DNA from: Flavobacterium psychrophilum
GTDB taxonomy: Bacteria > Bacteroidota > Bacteroidia > Flavobacteriales > Flavobacteriaceae
Direction of reading: 5' to 3'
Assembly: GCA_945878515.1 (NCBI GenBank)
Contig: CAMCTL010000022.1
Location: 1-30,820 of the forward strand
Length of the DNA: 30,820 nt
Part shown: positions 11,240 to 21,689 of the stretch, piece after piece
How the letters are laid out: each line of letters opens with the position of its first letter
Numbering within the stretch: the stretch's first letter is position 1
Translations under genes and position numbers: made by a program
Notes under the pieces: generated by a model
The model's database searches: none
Told to the model about the DNA's origin: nothing
What the model saw: only the letters and a program-made list of their open reading frames with translations

Positions 11240-11503
11240 ATGACAAGAGAAGAATTCATAACGAAAAACGCCCATCTTTTTTGGTACATTAAGAAAGACG
11301 CCATTCCTAATATTGGGAATGAAGTTTTGGTGGAATTTATTTTTAATTATGGCACTTGGCAAGATGTAAAAGATTTGATAAAAATAATCGGTTACAATGA
11401 ATTGAAAAGGGTTTATGAGGATGTTACCGATAGAAAAATTGGGAATTACATTCCTGAAATGCTAGATTTAATGGGCAGAATTACACATAAATATGCATCT
11501 TGA
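11240..11503 (+). CDS. DUF6922-like small protein, probable antitoxin partner of the AbiEii gene
   Basis: 87 residues, starting MTREEFITKNAHLFWYIKKD, then NEVLVEFIFNYGTWQDVKDL and GYNELKRVYEDV. The HLFW motif followed by a helical YG..D...L...G..E pattern fits the DUF6922-type proteins found beside AbiEii nucleotidyltransferases in Bacteroidota. It overlaps the start of the AbiEii gene by 11 bases, so the two are translationally coupled. In this arrangement the small upstream protein is inferred to act as antitoxin or regulator. There is no enzymatic motif. The family assignment rests on pattern recognition alone. Confidence 0.7.
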   Translation: MTREEFITKNAHLFWYIKKDAIPNIGNEVLVEFIFNYGTWQDVKDLIKIIGYNELKRVYEDVTDRKIGNYIPEMLDLMGRITHKYAS

Positions 11504-12119
11504 AATTTTAAATAAAGACCAATTAGAACTTCTGCCAATAATTTCCCAGTTTAAAAGGGAATACTATTTGGTTGGCGGAACGGCAATTGCGCTGCATATT
11601 GGTCACCGAGAGTCGATTGATTTTGATTTATTTAAAGAAAAAGCTATTAGGAAGCAAGATGTTTTTTCTAAACTTAAGAAAATCGATTATAAAGTTTCGT
11701 TTGCAGATTATAATCAAATAAATATGTTGTCAAATGGTGTGAAAATTACTTTTTTCTCTTTTCCTTATTCAGTTCCGTTGAATTCTGAGTTAAAAGGTAT
11801 TCTCAAAATGCCCGATTTATTGACACTTGCTGCAATGAAAGCTTTTGCTTTGGGCAGACGCGCAAAATATAAAGACTATGTTGATTTGTATTTTATCATA
11901 AAATTTCATTATTCTATTTACGATATTTCTGCAAAAGCGGCATCTATTTTTAAAGAACAGTTTATTGAAAAGCAATTTATTGCTCAGCTTGGCTATTATA
12001 AAGGAATTGACTACCGAGAAGAAGTTACTTATTTAATTCCAAATCCACCAACTGAAGCGGAAGTTCAAGATTTTTTAATTAATGCAAGTATAGAAGGATT
12101 AGAAATATCTCAAATTTAG
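11493..12119 (+). CDS. AbiEii/AbiGii-family nucleotidyltransferase (toxin-type)
   Basis: 208-residue member of the DNA polymerase beta-like nucleotidyltransferase fold. The signature is YLVGGTAIALHIGHRESIDF followed by DLF: the GG motif (G28, G29) and the DxD metal ligands D43 and D45. Later elements include LLTLAAMKAFALGRRAKYKD and DYVDLYFI, the conserved Lys and Asp block of the family. Characterised relatives (AbiEii, MenT) are toxins that add nucleotides to RNA, and the AbiE system gives phage abortive infection. It overlaps the upstream DUF6922-like gene by 11 bases, and its stop directly abuts the GSCFA start. Motifs are complete, so it is probably active; its target is unknown. Confidence 0.9.
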   Translation: MHLEILNKDQLELLPIISQFKREYYLVGGTAIALHIGHRESIDFDLFKEKAIRKQDVFSKLKKIDYKVSFADYNQINMLSNGVKITFFSFPYSVPLNSELKGILKMPDLLTLAAMKAFALGRRAKYKDYVDLYFIIKFHYSIYDISAKAASIFKEQFIEKQFIAQLGYYKGIDYREEVTYLIPNPPTEAEVQDFLINASIEGLEISQI

Positions 12120-17620: not shown

Positions 17621-18067
17621 TTAACCTTGTCTTTTTCCTTCTTGTTTTCTTTGAGGTTTTCCTTGAAATTTATCTTGGTGATCTTCTTTTAGTGAAGTCC
17701 ATTTTTCAAATTGCTTTGCATTTAAGATTTTTTCCATTCTTTTTTTAGTTGCAATTTGTTCGTCTAGCATTTTCATCTGCATCGCAAATCGCTCGTCATT
17801 TGTGGGTTTTACTCCTTTTTCTCTGTTGGTTTTCATCGTCTCTTTATGAGCTTCCATTTTTGCAATTTTATCCGAAATAACGGCACTTATTTCTTTTTGT
17901 TGCGCCTCATTCAAATCCAATGCTAAAGTCATTTTTTTCAACATCAACTGACTTTTTTGCTCTGGAGTAAATTGCTCCATTTCGTTTTTGCGATGTTTTC
18001 TGTTTCCTTCTTGTGCCATTATAGTTGTCCCAACTAGTAATAATGTCATAATAATTAATCTTTTCAT
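17621..18067 (-). CDS. Spy/CpxP-like periplasmic protein
   Basis: 148 residues. The signal peptide MKRLIIMTLLLVGTTIMAQ is followed by a mostly helical, charged domain: FTPEQKSQLMLKKMTLALDL, NEAQQKEISAVISDKIAKME, then RFAMQMKMLDEQIATKKRM and FEKWTSLKEDHQDKF. The two hydrophobic-Thr-x-x-Gln-like helices resemble LTxxQ repeats of Spy/CpxP, which act as ATP-independent periplasmic chaperones or stress/metal sensors. The C-terminus is a Lys/Gln/Gly-rich tail. It is divergent from the Cys-rich gene of the probable copper locus. Copper or envelope-stress control is possible but not shown. Confidence 0.75.
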   Translation of the reverse strand: MKRLIIMTLLLVGTTIMAQEGNRKHRKNEMEQFTPEQKSQLMLKKMTLALDLNEAQQKEISAVISDKIAKMEAHKETMKTNREKGVKPTNDERFAMQMKMLDEQIATKKRMEKILNAKQFEKWTSLKEDHQDKFQGKPQRKQEGKRQG

Positions 18068-18169: not shown

Positions 18170-18565
18170 ATGGAAACTTATATTTACAAAGTGAAAAAAA
18201 TAATATTCCTTTTAGCGTTGATGATGTTACTAAAACCGGTGCTTCCGGTTGTGGACTATATTGTTAATTATGAATATATTTCTAAAGTGCTTTGTGTCAA
18301 TAAAGCCAAGCCAAAGCTGCAATGTAATGGTAAATGCCATTTGATGAAAGAGCTTGCCAAAACATCCGAAAGCGAAACTCCCATTTCTTCCAACAAGAAA
18401 ATAGCTTCCCACGAATTAGAAGTATTGTTTTGTGCAGAAATAAAATCATTTAAAATTACTTGTCTGTTTTTTTATAAAAAACAAATACCAAACAACAACT
18501 ATTCTGACTTTTACTCTTATTTGAATAGTGATTCCGTTTTTAGGCCACCCATTTTTATTTCTTAA
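18170..18565 (+). CDS. Small membrane protein with CX3CH motif, unknown function
   Basis: 131 residues with an N-terminal hydrophobic segment (about 8-30, a signal or anchor). It is followed by LCVNKAKPKLQCNGKCHLMKEL: C42, C52, C56, H57. The CNGKCH group is a CX3CH pattern that could bind a metal or, less likely, covalent heme. The remainder is hydrophilic with another Cys pair (about C89 and C98). The motif pattern recurs in short Bacteroidota proteins beside metal-related genes, but I know of no assigned function. It lies 161 bases upstream of the MbnP gene on the same strand. A GTG seven codons in (18191) is an alternative start. Confidence 0.7.
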   Translation: METYIYKVKKIIFLLALMMLLKPVLPVVDYIVNYEYISKVLCVNKAKPKLQCNGKCHLMKELAKTSESETPISSNKKIASHELEVLFCAEIKSFKITCLFFYKKQIPNNNYSDFYSYLNSDSVFRPPIFIS

Positions 18566-18726
18566 AGTTATTGCAAAAAAACAAAGCTTTCATTCTATAT
18601 AATTGCTTTAGTTGTTTGCATTTATTTCAATTTTATCAACAAATTGAAAGTATTTTTATGTTCAAATAGTTTTGATTACTGCTGTTTTCAAGACGCAATC
18701 TTTTATAAACTTTAATAAATAAAAAA

Positions 18727-19506
18727 GTGAAATTTCAATTCAAAAATATAGTAGCCATTTTGGCTTTAGCATTAATATTCACTTCTTGTGAAGACAATAA
18801 CACCGAAACAATTTCTGGCGAAGGTGCATTAAAAGTAGAATTCGACAACGTTTATGGTACCGCAAATTTAGCATTCAACACCGCATACACTAACACAAAC
18901 GGCGAGGTAGTCAAAGTAAACAACGCAATTTACATCATTAGTAATATCGTTCTAACAAAAGAAGATGGTTCGACTTACACCGTGCCAAAAGCCAACAGTT
19001 ATTTCTTCGTAAACGAATCGAACGCTGCCAGTACTATTTTAAACTTACCAAATATTCCAGCTGCTAATTATACCAAAGTTTCATTTGGTGTTGGAGTAGA
19101 TAAAGCACAGTTTGATGCAGGATCCGATGGGCAAGGTACAATGTGGACCGATGCTCAAGCACTTGGAATGACTTGGTCTTGGGCTGCAGGATACAAATTT
19201 GTAAAACTGGAAGGTACAGTAACTTCTACAACGCACACTAATGCAAATTTTAGAGTTCATACCGGAAAAACAGGGGATATTTATAATTATGCCACAGTAA
19301 CTTTAGACCTTCCGAACAAGGCTTTAGTAAGAACAAATGTTACACCACAACTTCATATTCTTACTGATCTAAAGAAAGTAATCGAAGGCACAACGGTCAT
19401 CAATTTTAATGAAGGATTAGACGTAATGGGCGGTACAAAAGTGCAAAACATTTCAGCGAACAACGTTCCTAAAATGTTTACTATAAATCACGTACACAAC
19501 GATTAA
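18727..19506 (+). CDS. MbnP-family copper-binding lipoprotein, GTG start
   Basis: 259 residues. The signal peptide ends in lipobox FTSC (C21). The body is beta-rich, with VKVNNAIYIISNIVLTKEDG and the signature MWTDAQALGMTWSWAAGYKF (W140, W150, W152), VKLEGT, TPQLHILTDL and a C-terminal NHVHND. Characterised MbnP proteins bind copper at a site that depends on a tryptophan oxidised to kynurenine by the partner di-heme enzyme MbnH, whose homologue is encoded next. There is only one Cys (the lipid anchor), so the four-Cys motif of some relatives is absent; candidate ligands are H170, H178, H210, H255 and H257. GTG at 18727 is the only sensible start. Confidence 0.85.
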   Translation: MKFQFKNIVAILALALIFTSCEDNNTETISGEGALKVEFDNVYGTANLAFNTAYTNTNGEVVKVNNAIYIISNIVLTKEDGSTYTVPKANSYFFVNESNAASTILNLPNIPAANYTKVSFGVGVDKAQFDAGSDGQGTMWTDAQALGMTWSWAAGYKFVKLEGTVTSTTHTNANFRVHTGKTGDIYNYATVTLDLPNKALVRTNVTPQLHILTDLKKVIEGTTVINFNEGLDVMGGTKVQNISANNVPKMFTINHVHND

Positions 19507-19557
19507 TTTATGTTTAAAGTCTAAACAATTTAATTTAACCAAGCTAGATAGTTTAAT

Positions 19558-19625
19558 AAACCATTAAGATCAATAAGAAAATTGAGAAATAATACTCTTG
19601 ATGAACCTTAATTTCTTAATGGTTT
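19558..19625. repeat. Imperfect long inverted repeat between the MbnP and MbnH-family genes
   Basis: AAACCATTAAGA (19558-19569) and its exact complement TCTTAATGGTTT (19614-19625), with outer arms TAGTTTAAT / AGAAACTA also partly pairing. The inner 44 bases are A/T-rich. It may be a processing or attenuation element that sets the ratio of the two proteins, or an old repeat insertion. Confidence 0.55.
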
Positions 19626-19678
19626 AGAAACTATTGCTAACGGGCTTTTCATTCCCATCCTTGCTAAAAATATCTAGT

Positions 19679-20719
19679 ATGAAAACAATATTTTTAATCC
19701 TAATTACTTCGGTTTTTTTTATCGGATGTTCTCCCGAAAGCGAGGACGAATACCAAAACCTCCCTATAAACTATCAAGTTCCCTCAAATTTTCCGCCTTT
19801 GGTTTATAATATGGCAAATAATCCTCTTACAGAAAAAGGCTTCGAGTTAGGAAAAAAAATCTTTTATGATGGTCGTTTGGCCTCTGACGGAGTGGTCGCT
19901 TGTGGCTTTTGTCACCTGCAAGAAAATGCCTTTACGCACCACGGTCACACCTTTAGTCACGGGGTGGGGGACGGTGTAGGCACACGCAATGCACCTCCAA
20001 TTCAAAATATGGCGTATCAAACTCAATTTTTTTGGGACGGAGCTGCCAACCATATCGAGTTATTGTCTATGGGACCCATTTCTAACGAAATTGAAATGAA
20101 TGGAAACATTATCAACATTATCAATATGATGAAAAATGATGCCGATTATAAAAAATTATACAGTCAAGCCTTTCCAAATAAAGAGATTAATTCTGAATAT
20201 ATGCTGAAAGCTTTAGGGCAGTTTATGACGATGCTAACTTCCTCCAATTCAAGATTTGATAAATACAGACGCAACGAAACCGGAGGAACTTTGTCCGCCG
20301 AAGAAATTGAAGGTTACAAAGTATTTAATTTAAAATGTGCTTCTTGTCATGCTACGGATATTTTTACTGACAATTCTTTTCGCAACAATGGATTACCGAT
20401 AAATCCAGCCATAAAAGATGTGGGCCGATTTCGAGTTACCGAGCAAGAAAATGATAAATACAAATTCAAAGTGCCCAGTTTACGCAACATAGAAAAAACA
20501 GCACCTTATATGCACGATGGGAGATTTTACACCCTCGAAGGCGTGCTGGATCATTATTCAAATGGCGTTGTAAACACACCAAATTTGGACACAAGTTTAA
20601 GCAAAAATGGCACTTTAGGAATACCAATATCCACCACCGAAAAATCACAATTGGTTGCGTTTTTAAAAACCCTAACCGACAATGAATTCCTCACCAATCC
20701 CAAATTTGCTGAATTTTAA
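19679..20719 (+). CDS. Di-heme cytochrome c peroxidase / MbnH-family lipoprotein
   Basis: 346 residues. Signal peptide with lipobox FIGC (C17). Two c-type heme motifs are visible: CGFCH (C75, C78, H79) and CASCH (C220, C223, H224). Family blocks include GKKIFYDGRLASDGVVACGF, AFTHHGHTFSHGVGDG, TRNAPPIQNMAYQTQFFWDG and PSLRNIEKTAPYMHDGRFYT with VLDHYSNG. It belongs to the bacterial cytochrome c peroxidase/MauG superfamily. Beside an MbnP gene it is best read as the MbnH-type enzyme that oxidises a partner tryptophan, not a detoxifying peroxidase. The ATG at 19679 is preferred over TTG at 19634, since it starts exactly at the signal peptide. Confidence 0.9.
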   Translation: MKTIFLILITSVFFIGCSPESEDEYQNLPINYQVPSNFPPLVYNMANNPLTEKGFELGKKIFYDGRLASDGVVACGFCHLQENAFTHHGHTFSHGVGDGVGTRNAPPIQNMAYQTQFFWDGAANHIELLSMGPISNEIEMNGNIINIINMMKNDADYKKLYSQAFPNKEINSEYMLKALGQFMTMLTSSNSRFDKYRRNETGGTLSAEEIEGYKVFNLKCASCHATDIFTDNSFRNNGLPINPAIKDVGRFRVTEQENDKYKFKVPSLRNIEKTAPYMHDGRFYTLEGVLDHYSNGVVNTPNLDTSLSKNGTLGIPISTTEKSQLVAFLKTLTDNEFLTNPKFAEF

Positions 20720-20723
20720 AATA

Positions 20724-21689
20724 ATGAAAAATATATATAAGTTTGTTTTGCTTTTGTTTTTTCAATTTGCTTTTGCAACAGAAAAAGACAGTTTATCTAA
20801 GCACAATCCGTTCGTGAAGTTTCATCAATTTGCCATTGCATTAGACGATGATTGCGATACTTGTGGCTGTTCAGCAAGTGGCGGTAGTATGGGTTTTGCT
20901 TCAATGTTGAACTCTAATTTTGTGGGAATTCGCTATTTTAATCAATCCTATAAAAGTACCGATGGTTTGTACAGCAATTCTTCTTGGTACGATGAAAAAT
21001 ACAACACCATGCAAATTTGGACAAGAATTCCTGTAGTAAAACGGGTTCAAATTACAGGCTTATTCCCGTATCATTTTCACAATCGAGAAACGGCAAATGG
21101 AAAACAAAATATTAGTGGCATTGGCGACATTACAGTGTTAGCAATGTATCAACCGTACCAAACCCACAAAGACAGCACTATGTTGGTGCATACGCTACAA
21201 GTTGGCGGTGGAATGAAAATCCCCACCGGAAAGTTTGACCAAGCTAATAATGGCAGTTTCAATCCGAGTTATCAGGTAGGGACGGGTAGTTGGGATTATC
21301 TTTTGGCTTCGGAATATGTAATTAGAAGAAAACAATTTGGCCTCAACACGATGCTCAATTATGTGATTAAATCTGAAAATGATAGAAAGTATCGTTTCGG
21401 AAATCAATTCAACTATTCGGGAACTTTTTTCTATTTGCACGAAAATGATGGTTTCTCTTTTGCACCACAAATTGGTTTTGCCGGCGAAGTTTATGAAGAA
21501 AATTACCAATTAGGACAACAAGTAGGTAACACAGCAGGCGATATTTTCCTAGGAAAGATAGGTTTTGAAATGGCAAAAAACAAATTGTCTGTTGGTGCAA
21601 ATCTAATGTTACCAATCAATCAAAACTTAAACGGAGGAAACCTTGAAGCTAATTATCGTTGGAGTTTAAATTTGAATTATAGTTTGTAG
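20724..21689 (+). CDS. Outer-membrane-type protein of the MbnP/MbnH locus with a Cys cluster
   Basis: 321 residues. Signal peptide (about 1-18), then a cluster ALDDDCDTCGCSASGGSMGF (C44, C47, C49) followed by alternating aromatic/polar strands to the end (MQIWTRIPVVKRVQITGLFP, FSFAPQIGFAGEVYEE, YRWSLNLNYSL). The terminal Leu/aromatic pattern suggests a beta-barrel inserted in the outer membrane. The Cys-X2-Cys-X-Cys cluster at the mature N-terminus could hold copper. Its start is 4 bases after the peroxidase stop. It may be a transport or sensing partner; the family is usually annotated only as a transporter or hypothetical. I chose the ATG at 20724, dropping 14 residues that overlap the upstream gene. 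Confidence 0.78.
   Translation: MKNIYKFVLLLFFQFAFATEKDSLSKHNPFVKFHQFAIALDDDCDTCGCSASGGSMGFASMLNSNFVGIRYFNQSYKSTDGLYSNSSWYDEKYNTMQIWTRIPVVKRVQITGLFPYHFHNRETANGKQNISGIGDITVLAMYQPYQTHKDSTMLVHTLQVGGGMKIPTGKFDQANNGSFNPSYQVGTGSWDYLLASEYVIRRKQFGLNTMLNYVIKSENDRKYRFGNQFNYSGTFFYLHENDGFSFAPQIGFAGEVYEENYQLGQQVGNTAGDIFLGKIGFEMAKNKLSVGANLMLPINQNLNGGNLEANYRWSLNLNYSL

Follow-up and report, generated by a model that had tools for sequence, protein, structure and literature searches.

A four-gene MbnP/MbnH locus of Flavobacterium psychrophilum recurs in Bacteroidota and may encode a copper-capture cassette

The four genes and their products

We analysed a stretch of DNA of 30,820 nucleotides from Flavobacterium psychrophilum (assembly GCA_945878515.1, contig CAMCTL010000022.1), in the following called the window, in which four consecutive open reading frames (ORFs) fill positions 18170-21689. 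All are open, lie on the plus strand and encode a small protein, an MbnP-family lipoprotein, an MbnH-type di-heme enzyme and an outer-membrane beta-barrel (Table 1). Their order agrees with a first-pass annotation of the window, which read the four genes as a copper locus, and the small protein carries LCVNKAKPKLQCNGKCH as that annotation had it. The intergenic gaps are 161, 172 and 4 bases when ATG 19679 is chosen as start of the di-heme enzyme and ATG 20724 as start of the barrel; the ORF list holds a longer TTG frame from 19634 for the former and a longer frame from 20682 for the latter.

Table 1. Features of the four-gene locus, in positions of the window
Feature	Position	Strand	Basis
Small CX3C protein, 131 aa, N-terminal hydrophobic segment, C-terminal RPPIFIS	18170..18565	+	ORF
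LCVNKAKPKLQCNGKCH, holding the three conserved Cys (42, 52, 56) of the small protein	18290..18340	+	sequence, conservation
MbnP-family lipoprotein, 259 aa, GTG start	18727..19506	+	
MbnP lipobox Cys21, followed by acidic EDNNTE resembling a surface-export signal	18787..18789	+	alignment; family acidic enrichment
MbnP WxW site M-T-W150-S-W152, Trp expected to become kynurenine	19168..19182	+	conservation, alignment with 7L6G
MbnP C-terminal H255-V-H257-N-D	19489..19503	+	association with the third Cys of the barrel
MbnH/MauG-type di-heme enzyme, 346 aa, lipobox-like Cys17	19679..20719	+	CCP_MauG, TIGR04039 and 6E1C matches
Heme-binding motif CGFCH of the di-heme enzyme	19901..19915	+	sequence
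Heme-binding motif CASCH of the di-heme enzyme	20336..20350	+	sequence
Outer-membrane beta-barrel, 321 aa, COG4313/FapF-like	20724..21689	+	
Barrel Cys cluster C44-D-T-C47-G-C49, ahead of the first barrel strand	20853..20870	+	conservation

The second protein scores 149.5 bits against PF20243 (MbnP), for which the Pfam cut-off is 27. A single-sequence search of the PDB returned one weak unrelated match only, while profile and fold searches led to 7L6G, and the protein agrees with the fold of this solved MbnP; together these matches support its identification as an MbnP. PF20243 is found above cut-off in 77 of 296 Bacteroidota genomes and in none of 14 control genomes. The four-Cys form after which the 7L6G chain is named is not matched, as the first-pass annotation had noticed: the only Cys is Cys21 of the lipobox, which is invariant in the 18 aligned MbnP sequences, window included. 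Tryptophans are found at 140, 150 and 152 only, and the protein ends in NHVHND with histidines 255 and 257. W150, W152 and H178 are present in every one of 35 divergent MbnPs chosen, and the window MTWSW aligns with MAWNW of 7L6G; WxW is present in 106 of 119 MbnP frames. All three tryptophans had been put forward as a group. W140 was rejected as part of the site; it is kept in 18/18 close sequences but not conserved in the wider, 35-member set, the Flavobacterium loci L021 and L022 included.

The MbnH-type identity of the third protein is supported by a CCP_MauG (PF03150) match of 2.6e-48, by TIGR04039 as best NCBIfam model (224.5 bits), by two CXXCH motifs (residues 75 and 220) along with PYMHDG, and by a best PDB match (6.7e-45) to 6E1C, 'Di-heme enzyme', which we take to be MbnH of Methylosinus trichosporium. 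In one related locus (L011, 6888-7821) MbnH is split over two frames, by a frameshift or an assembly error.

The fourth protein falls under the COG4313/FapF-type barrel fold. Pfam assigns no family to it, and PF13557 (Phenol_MetA_deg) matches 5 of 26 relatives at E<=0.1 (best 1.4e-11). It has exactly three cysteines, C44-X2-C47-X-C49, of which C44 and C47 occur without exception in the 26 barrels chosen and C49 is variable; the barrels of L315 and L334, outside this alignment, do not have the CDxC form, and those of L334 (54 bits) and L337 were counted as barrels in spite of lacking the cluster. The cluster was thus correctly described by the first-pass annotation, but its placement directly after the signal peptide was not: judged by eye it lies some 24 residues past the apparent signal-peptide end in the window. 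In many distant relatives it does sit at the apparent cleavage site. Compared with the COG4313 channel (4RL8) and the FapF amyloid secretion channel (5O65), the window barrel adds the N-terminal CDxC[GN]C and the MbnP neighbourhood.

The small protein has cysteines at 42, 52, 56, 88 and 98, the first three of which are conserved. The search returned 721 relatives at E<=0.001, and C42, C52, G54, C56, P126 and P127 do not vary among the 40 divergent members chosen. It is assigned to no family of Pfam or NCBIfam. Placement in a known family was rejected: the commonest Pfam match, to an animal-type domain, occurs in 4 of 40 members with a best E of 0.0017, and the best NCBIfam value is 0.011.

Recurrence of the gene set and the paired motif

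The four genes form a recurring unit in Bacteroidota. Among 22 loci of MbnP relatives on genome contigs, all flavobacterial, tblastn detected MbnP, MbnH and the small gene in every locus and the barrel in 21; the small gene of L001 is cut by the contig end, and the contig of L019, the locus without a barrel match, stops just past MbnH. Around 93 first-sample MbnP matches an MbnH-type gene is present in 92 regions and adjacent in 91. All four genes occur in 28 of these regions, the small gene without the barrel in 13, the barrel without the small gene in 2, the MbnP/MbnH pair only in 49 and MbnP alone in one. In a second sample all four are found in 26 of 60 regions. This sample holds the 60 best-scoring new matches among those listed (36 + 24), from other genomes of the same phylum; it leans to stronger MbnPs, and three genomes supplied two regions each. 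Three matches under the Pfam cut-off were omitted before the regions were fetched, as were G002, G005 and G007, which score above it and lie within L004, L012 and L014. The co-occurrence of the four families that the first-pass annotation had proposed to look for is therefore real. It had also supposed that the set was undescribed as a unit, and we found no account of it in the literature searched, which left subscription papers mostly outside.

The usual order is small gene, MbnP, MbnH, barrel, and in four loci (L075, L102, L306, L311) the barrel gene stands between the small gene and MbnP. In the 296 genomes, 22 of the 23 strong barrel matches (E<=1e-25) have an MbnP match no more than 6 kb away when compared by hand, and the exception (G055) has a small gene alongside. 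With weak matches included, the same comparison by hand places 29 of 44 near an MbnP, and at least four of the other 15 adjoin the small gene (L237, L238, L239, L243). Next to seven distant barrel relatives (L240, L242, L244-L247, L249) lies another recurrent gene, coding for some 374 aa. In L117, L139, L151, L128, L132, L138 and L141 MbnP or MbnH occurs in tandem and the barrel is absent, perhaps another use of the pair.

Further, the C-terminal end of MbnP goes with the third Cys of the barrel. The first-pass annotation had called this end a His-rich tail; the histidines are there, yet the description falls short, as it is the HxH (His-x-His) that accompanies the Cys. In 100 first-sample rows (the window, 8 of the 22 Flavobacterium loci and 91 of the 93 regions, L143 and L156 being omitted as MbnH is not adjacent) a Phe-spaced HxH end and a C-x2-CGC barrel were both present in 31 and both absent in 69. 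It should be noted that the spacing was narrowed after four looser ends had been seen, and the agreement of 100/100 is that of a pattern tuned on the same rows. Fixed beforehand, the rule that an F-x2-4-HxH end occurs if and only if there is a C-x2-CGC barrel held in 53 of 60 second-sample regions, 22 with both and 31 with neither, against 5 with the cluster and no strict end and 2 with the end and no cluster. Five of these seven misses end in HxH with other spacing, and L317 and L323 are true misses. A loosened pattern, which also accepts CNC, agrees in 112 of 116 loci of the first set (window + 22 + 93), 57 of 60 of the second and 145 of 151 in the set used for a tree; as it was chosen after the misses had been seen, the 57/60 is no prediction.

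On the tree of 151 MbnPs, computed without the ends and omitting rows with an MbnP below 150 bits, the two traits change 12 and 15 times, and in no tree test does an independent pair run the opposite way. Among the 17 barrel loci of this set that do not have both traits, 12 show neither trait, 3 have just the third Cys and 2 just the tail. The link is strong as a pattern.

Several results count against reading it as co-evolution. To a large extent it reflects whether a barrel is there at all, and it is partly shared by descent. The supported independent pairs are few: five in a first MbnH tree (three the same way, two without difference), four in a tree of MbnP + MbnH (4/4 the same way, p 0.125) and six in the 151-MbnP tree (5.4 the same way, 0.6 without difference, median p 0.0625), while barrel loci alone give 3 to 5 pairs with a median p of 0.25. 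There are also exceptions, with a third Cys and no tail (L108, L109, L126), with a tail and no third Cys (L317, L323), and with a tail where no barrel was found (L312). Hence we consider co-evolution of tail and third Cys suggestive but not proven.

By its nearest relatives the window resembles Flavobacterium. As for the surroundings in the window, a divergent LTXXQ/CpxP-like small secreted protein is encoded at 17621-18067 on the minus strand (19.5 bits against a Pfam cut-off of 24.3), and such a gene is kept next to the four genes in 18 loci, window counted. An AbiEii-type nucleotidyltransferase domain lies at 11493-12119 on the plus strand (43.7 bits), upstream of a GSCFA-family gene. The Pfam scan of 24 window proteins recognised no methanobactin genes, although short precursor peptides would escape it; the Rfam scan of the window gave no family at or above cut-off, and a plasmid collection searched at the DNA level gave no match.

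Copper context and cell side

Away from MbnP, the small gene leads other gene sets, as seen in 40 extra regions (L217-L256) that were taken down the barrel and small-gene match lists and of which some lie near an MbnP. With neighbour families assigned on representatives, its company is YtkA with a TonB receptor, a second type of TonB receptor, or a barrel with SCO1 and the copper chaperone PCuAC (L238, L239, L243). For the first receptor type the TonB-copper model TIGR01778 comes out as best NCBIfam model with three of the four tested, in each case without reaching its cut-off; for the second, the two tested score best with a siderophore-receptor model, also below cut-off. NosZ, a Sec-dependent nitrous-oxide reductase, is found near the small gene in L219 and L005 (928 and 919 bits). 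These Bacteroidota sets start with the same small three-Cys family as the window set, and replace MbnP/MbnH by the TonB receptor, or by barrel, SCO1 and PCuAC; both types of set stand side by side in L005 and L120-L123. They strengthen the copper theme put forward by the first-pass annotation.

The same annotation had placed the route in the periplasm. This is doubtful because MbnP has a lipobox and acidic residues as in Bacteroidota surface lipoproteins. In barrel-bearing loci a simple pattern detects a lipobox in 62 of 68 MbnPs, and in 53 of the 62 there are at least two acidic residues just past the Cys; other lipobox genes of the first-sample, Flavobacterium, window and extra regions have such a stretch in 52 of 182 cases. 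MbnH of barrel loci has a lipobox in 42 of 60, with the acidic stretch in 32 of the 42. The stretch of MbnP is similar to the signals for surface export described for Capnocytophaga and Flavobacterium, C-x-K-(D/E)2 and SDDFE (PMC5080379), and we lean towards MbnP at the cell surface rather than in the periplasm. The window stretches themselves, C-EDNNTE in MbnP and C-SPESED in MbnH, depart from the consensus, the former from SDDFE.

Related systems have been described. The MbnP/MbnH pair is conserved far beyond methanobactin producers, with unclear relevance, and MbnP is not markedly similar to CorA or MopE, according to PMC3621798. Compared with MbnP (7L6G) and MbnH of Methylosinus trichosporium, the window MbnP is without the four Cys and has the extra HxH end, and the pair of the window is joined by the barrel and the small protein; to judge from the sequences, the set may be regarded as a variant of the known pair with extra partners. 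According to PMC3912023, CorA and MopE are copper-repressed, lie at the cell surface and have kynurenine near copper, and the CorA site consists of Kyn62, His64 and His114. As in the CorA/CorB and MopE/SACCP systems of methanotrophs portrayed there, a putative copper protein has a di-heme partner here. The Kyn-x-His site of MopE and CorA is not matched by the window MbnP, which has W-S-W, as judged without an alignment to CorA. The TonB-dependent receptor OprC/NosA (PMC8610252) has a CxxxM-HxM arrangement, its Cys motif lying in the N-terminal plug and its His motif in the wall of the barrel, and by analogy it offers a precedent for a plug Cys motif facing a His motif in copper import. The proposal below likewise sets a Cys motif against a His motif in outer-membrane copper entry; OprC is a single TonB-dependent barrel, whereas here two proteins are involved, a small barrel that has no TonB-receptor match and bears the Cys motif, and a separate lipoprotein that bears the His motif.

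A possible copper route and its competitors

We suggest, at about even chances, that the four genes constitute a copper-capture cassette of Bacteroidota. In Methylosinus, MbnH reportedly converts a Trp of MbnP to kynurenine and so makes a copper site. By analogy with this pair and with MopE/CorA, the window enzyme would oxidise one Trp of the WxW site to kynurenine, giving a high-affinity copper site on MbnP, an outer-membrane lipoprotein probably facing outwards. From the HxH end copper would move on to the Cys-x2-Cys-x-Cys near the N-terminus of the FapF/COG4313-type barrel, the barrel would let it in, and the small membrane-anchored three-Cys protein would receive or sense it in the periplasm, possibly as a general copper-import partner that serves TonB-type receptors too. 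A more specific and rather doubtful version is a machine for copper entry at the Bacteroidota surface that works without TonB: a lipoprotein with a kynurenine site would be docked on a gated FapF/COG4313-type barrel, its C-terminal HxH delivering to a CxxCxC plug at the N-terminus of the barrel, with joint retention or loss of the two motifs, and the small protein would be the acceptor shared with TonB copper receptors.

A number of observations weigh against the copper-capture proposal. Copper is inferred from neighbours and family only, and two neighbour clusters (29, 47) resemble metal efflux genes by eye, which disfavours import. Neither member of the pair reaches the curated NCBIfam cut-offs that would align it with the methanobactin-locus pair: the enzyme stays below the 362.85 of TIGR04039, and MbnP has 44.2 bits with TIGR04052, the MbnP equivalog, where 140 is the cut-off, and is therefore not filed under this equivalog. 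Of 119 MbnP frames, 13 lack WxW, and all of these lie outside barrel loci. The pairing itself, which the first sample had upheld, is looser in the second, where MbnH does not adjoin MbnP in 13 of 60 regions (L307, L308, L312, L313, L315, L316, L317, L323, L330, L332, L335, L338, L364), eight of which keep the small gene and the barrel. WxW is retained in all 13 of these MbnPs, and an MbnH-type enzyme acting from a distance is possible; TIGR04039 does match elsewhere in each of the 12 genomes behind them, always below cut-off, and 2 of 14 control genomes give matches in this search as well. As to the cell side, MbnPs with a lipobox and no barrel have the acidic stretch in 25 of 35 and 5 of 12 cases, and hence it occurs independently of the barrel. 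The N-terminus of such a barrel faces the periplasm, and therefore a surface MbnP needs the Cys cluster to reach through the lumen.

The direction of transport could also be the reverse. In a copper-safety device, surface MbnP would bind and detain copper, and the small protein would supply copper, free or chelated, for export through the barrel. We think this unlikely, as several contexts of the small protein include TonB receptors, YtkA, SCO1 or PCuAC, two contexts have NosZ nearby, and copper represses MopE and CorA, the analogous proteins of methanotrophs (PMC3912023). The cargo might instead be another metal or a metal complex, such as zinc or a community-shared copper chelate, with MbnP merely named after its relative. 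Ten loci that pair the small protein with the second TonB type, the two tested being those with the siderophore-receptor score, would fit; SCO1, PCuAC and NosZ are copper proteins, though, and the constancy of WxW and H178 across the 35 aligned MbnPs also speaks for copper, and we judge this quite unlikely.

A different role of the enzyme is that MbnH reduces hydrogen peroxide as a cytochrome peroxidase and MbnP is an electron-transfer or docking partner, its Trp unmodified. Peroxidases belong to the same superfamily, one of them giving a PDB match that is only somewhat weaker (2e-37 against 6.7e-45), and the 13 second-sample MbnPs without an adjacent MbnH point the same way. Set against this, the best scores go to MbnH and MauG models, an MbnH-type gene shares the region of MbnP in all but one of the 93 first-sample cases, nearly always adjacent, and WxW is kept in most MbnP frames, so that we find a peroxidase role highly unlikely. 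Finally, the four genes might stand together by chance or through inherited order, with no joint function. In 14 of the 22 flavobacterial loci a gene for a class-III aminotransferase (hemL by eye) lies close by, therefore order alone proves little there. The set is retained, however, where its surroundings differ, in further Bacteroidota genomes and in two gene orders, and nearly all strong barrel matches lie near an MbnP, which leaves an accidental neighbourhood barely credible.

The MbnP/MbnH pair is widespread, and outside methanotrophs the copper-capture proposal offers a concrete outer-membrane copper route in a large phylum, and highlights the small three-Cys and the CDxC barrel families, for neither of which a function was found in Pfam or NCBIfam. 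The cassette may also bear on the copper supply of NosZ-bearing Bacteroidota.

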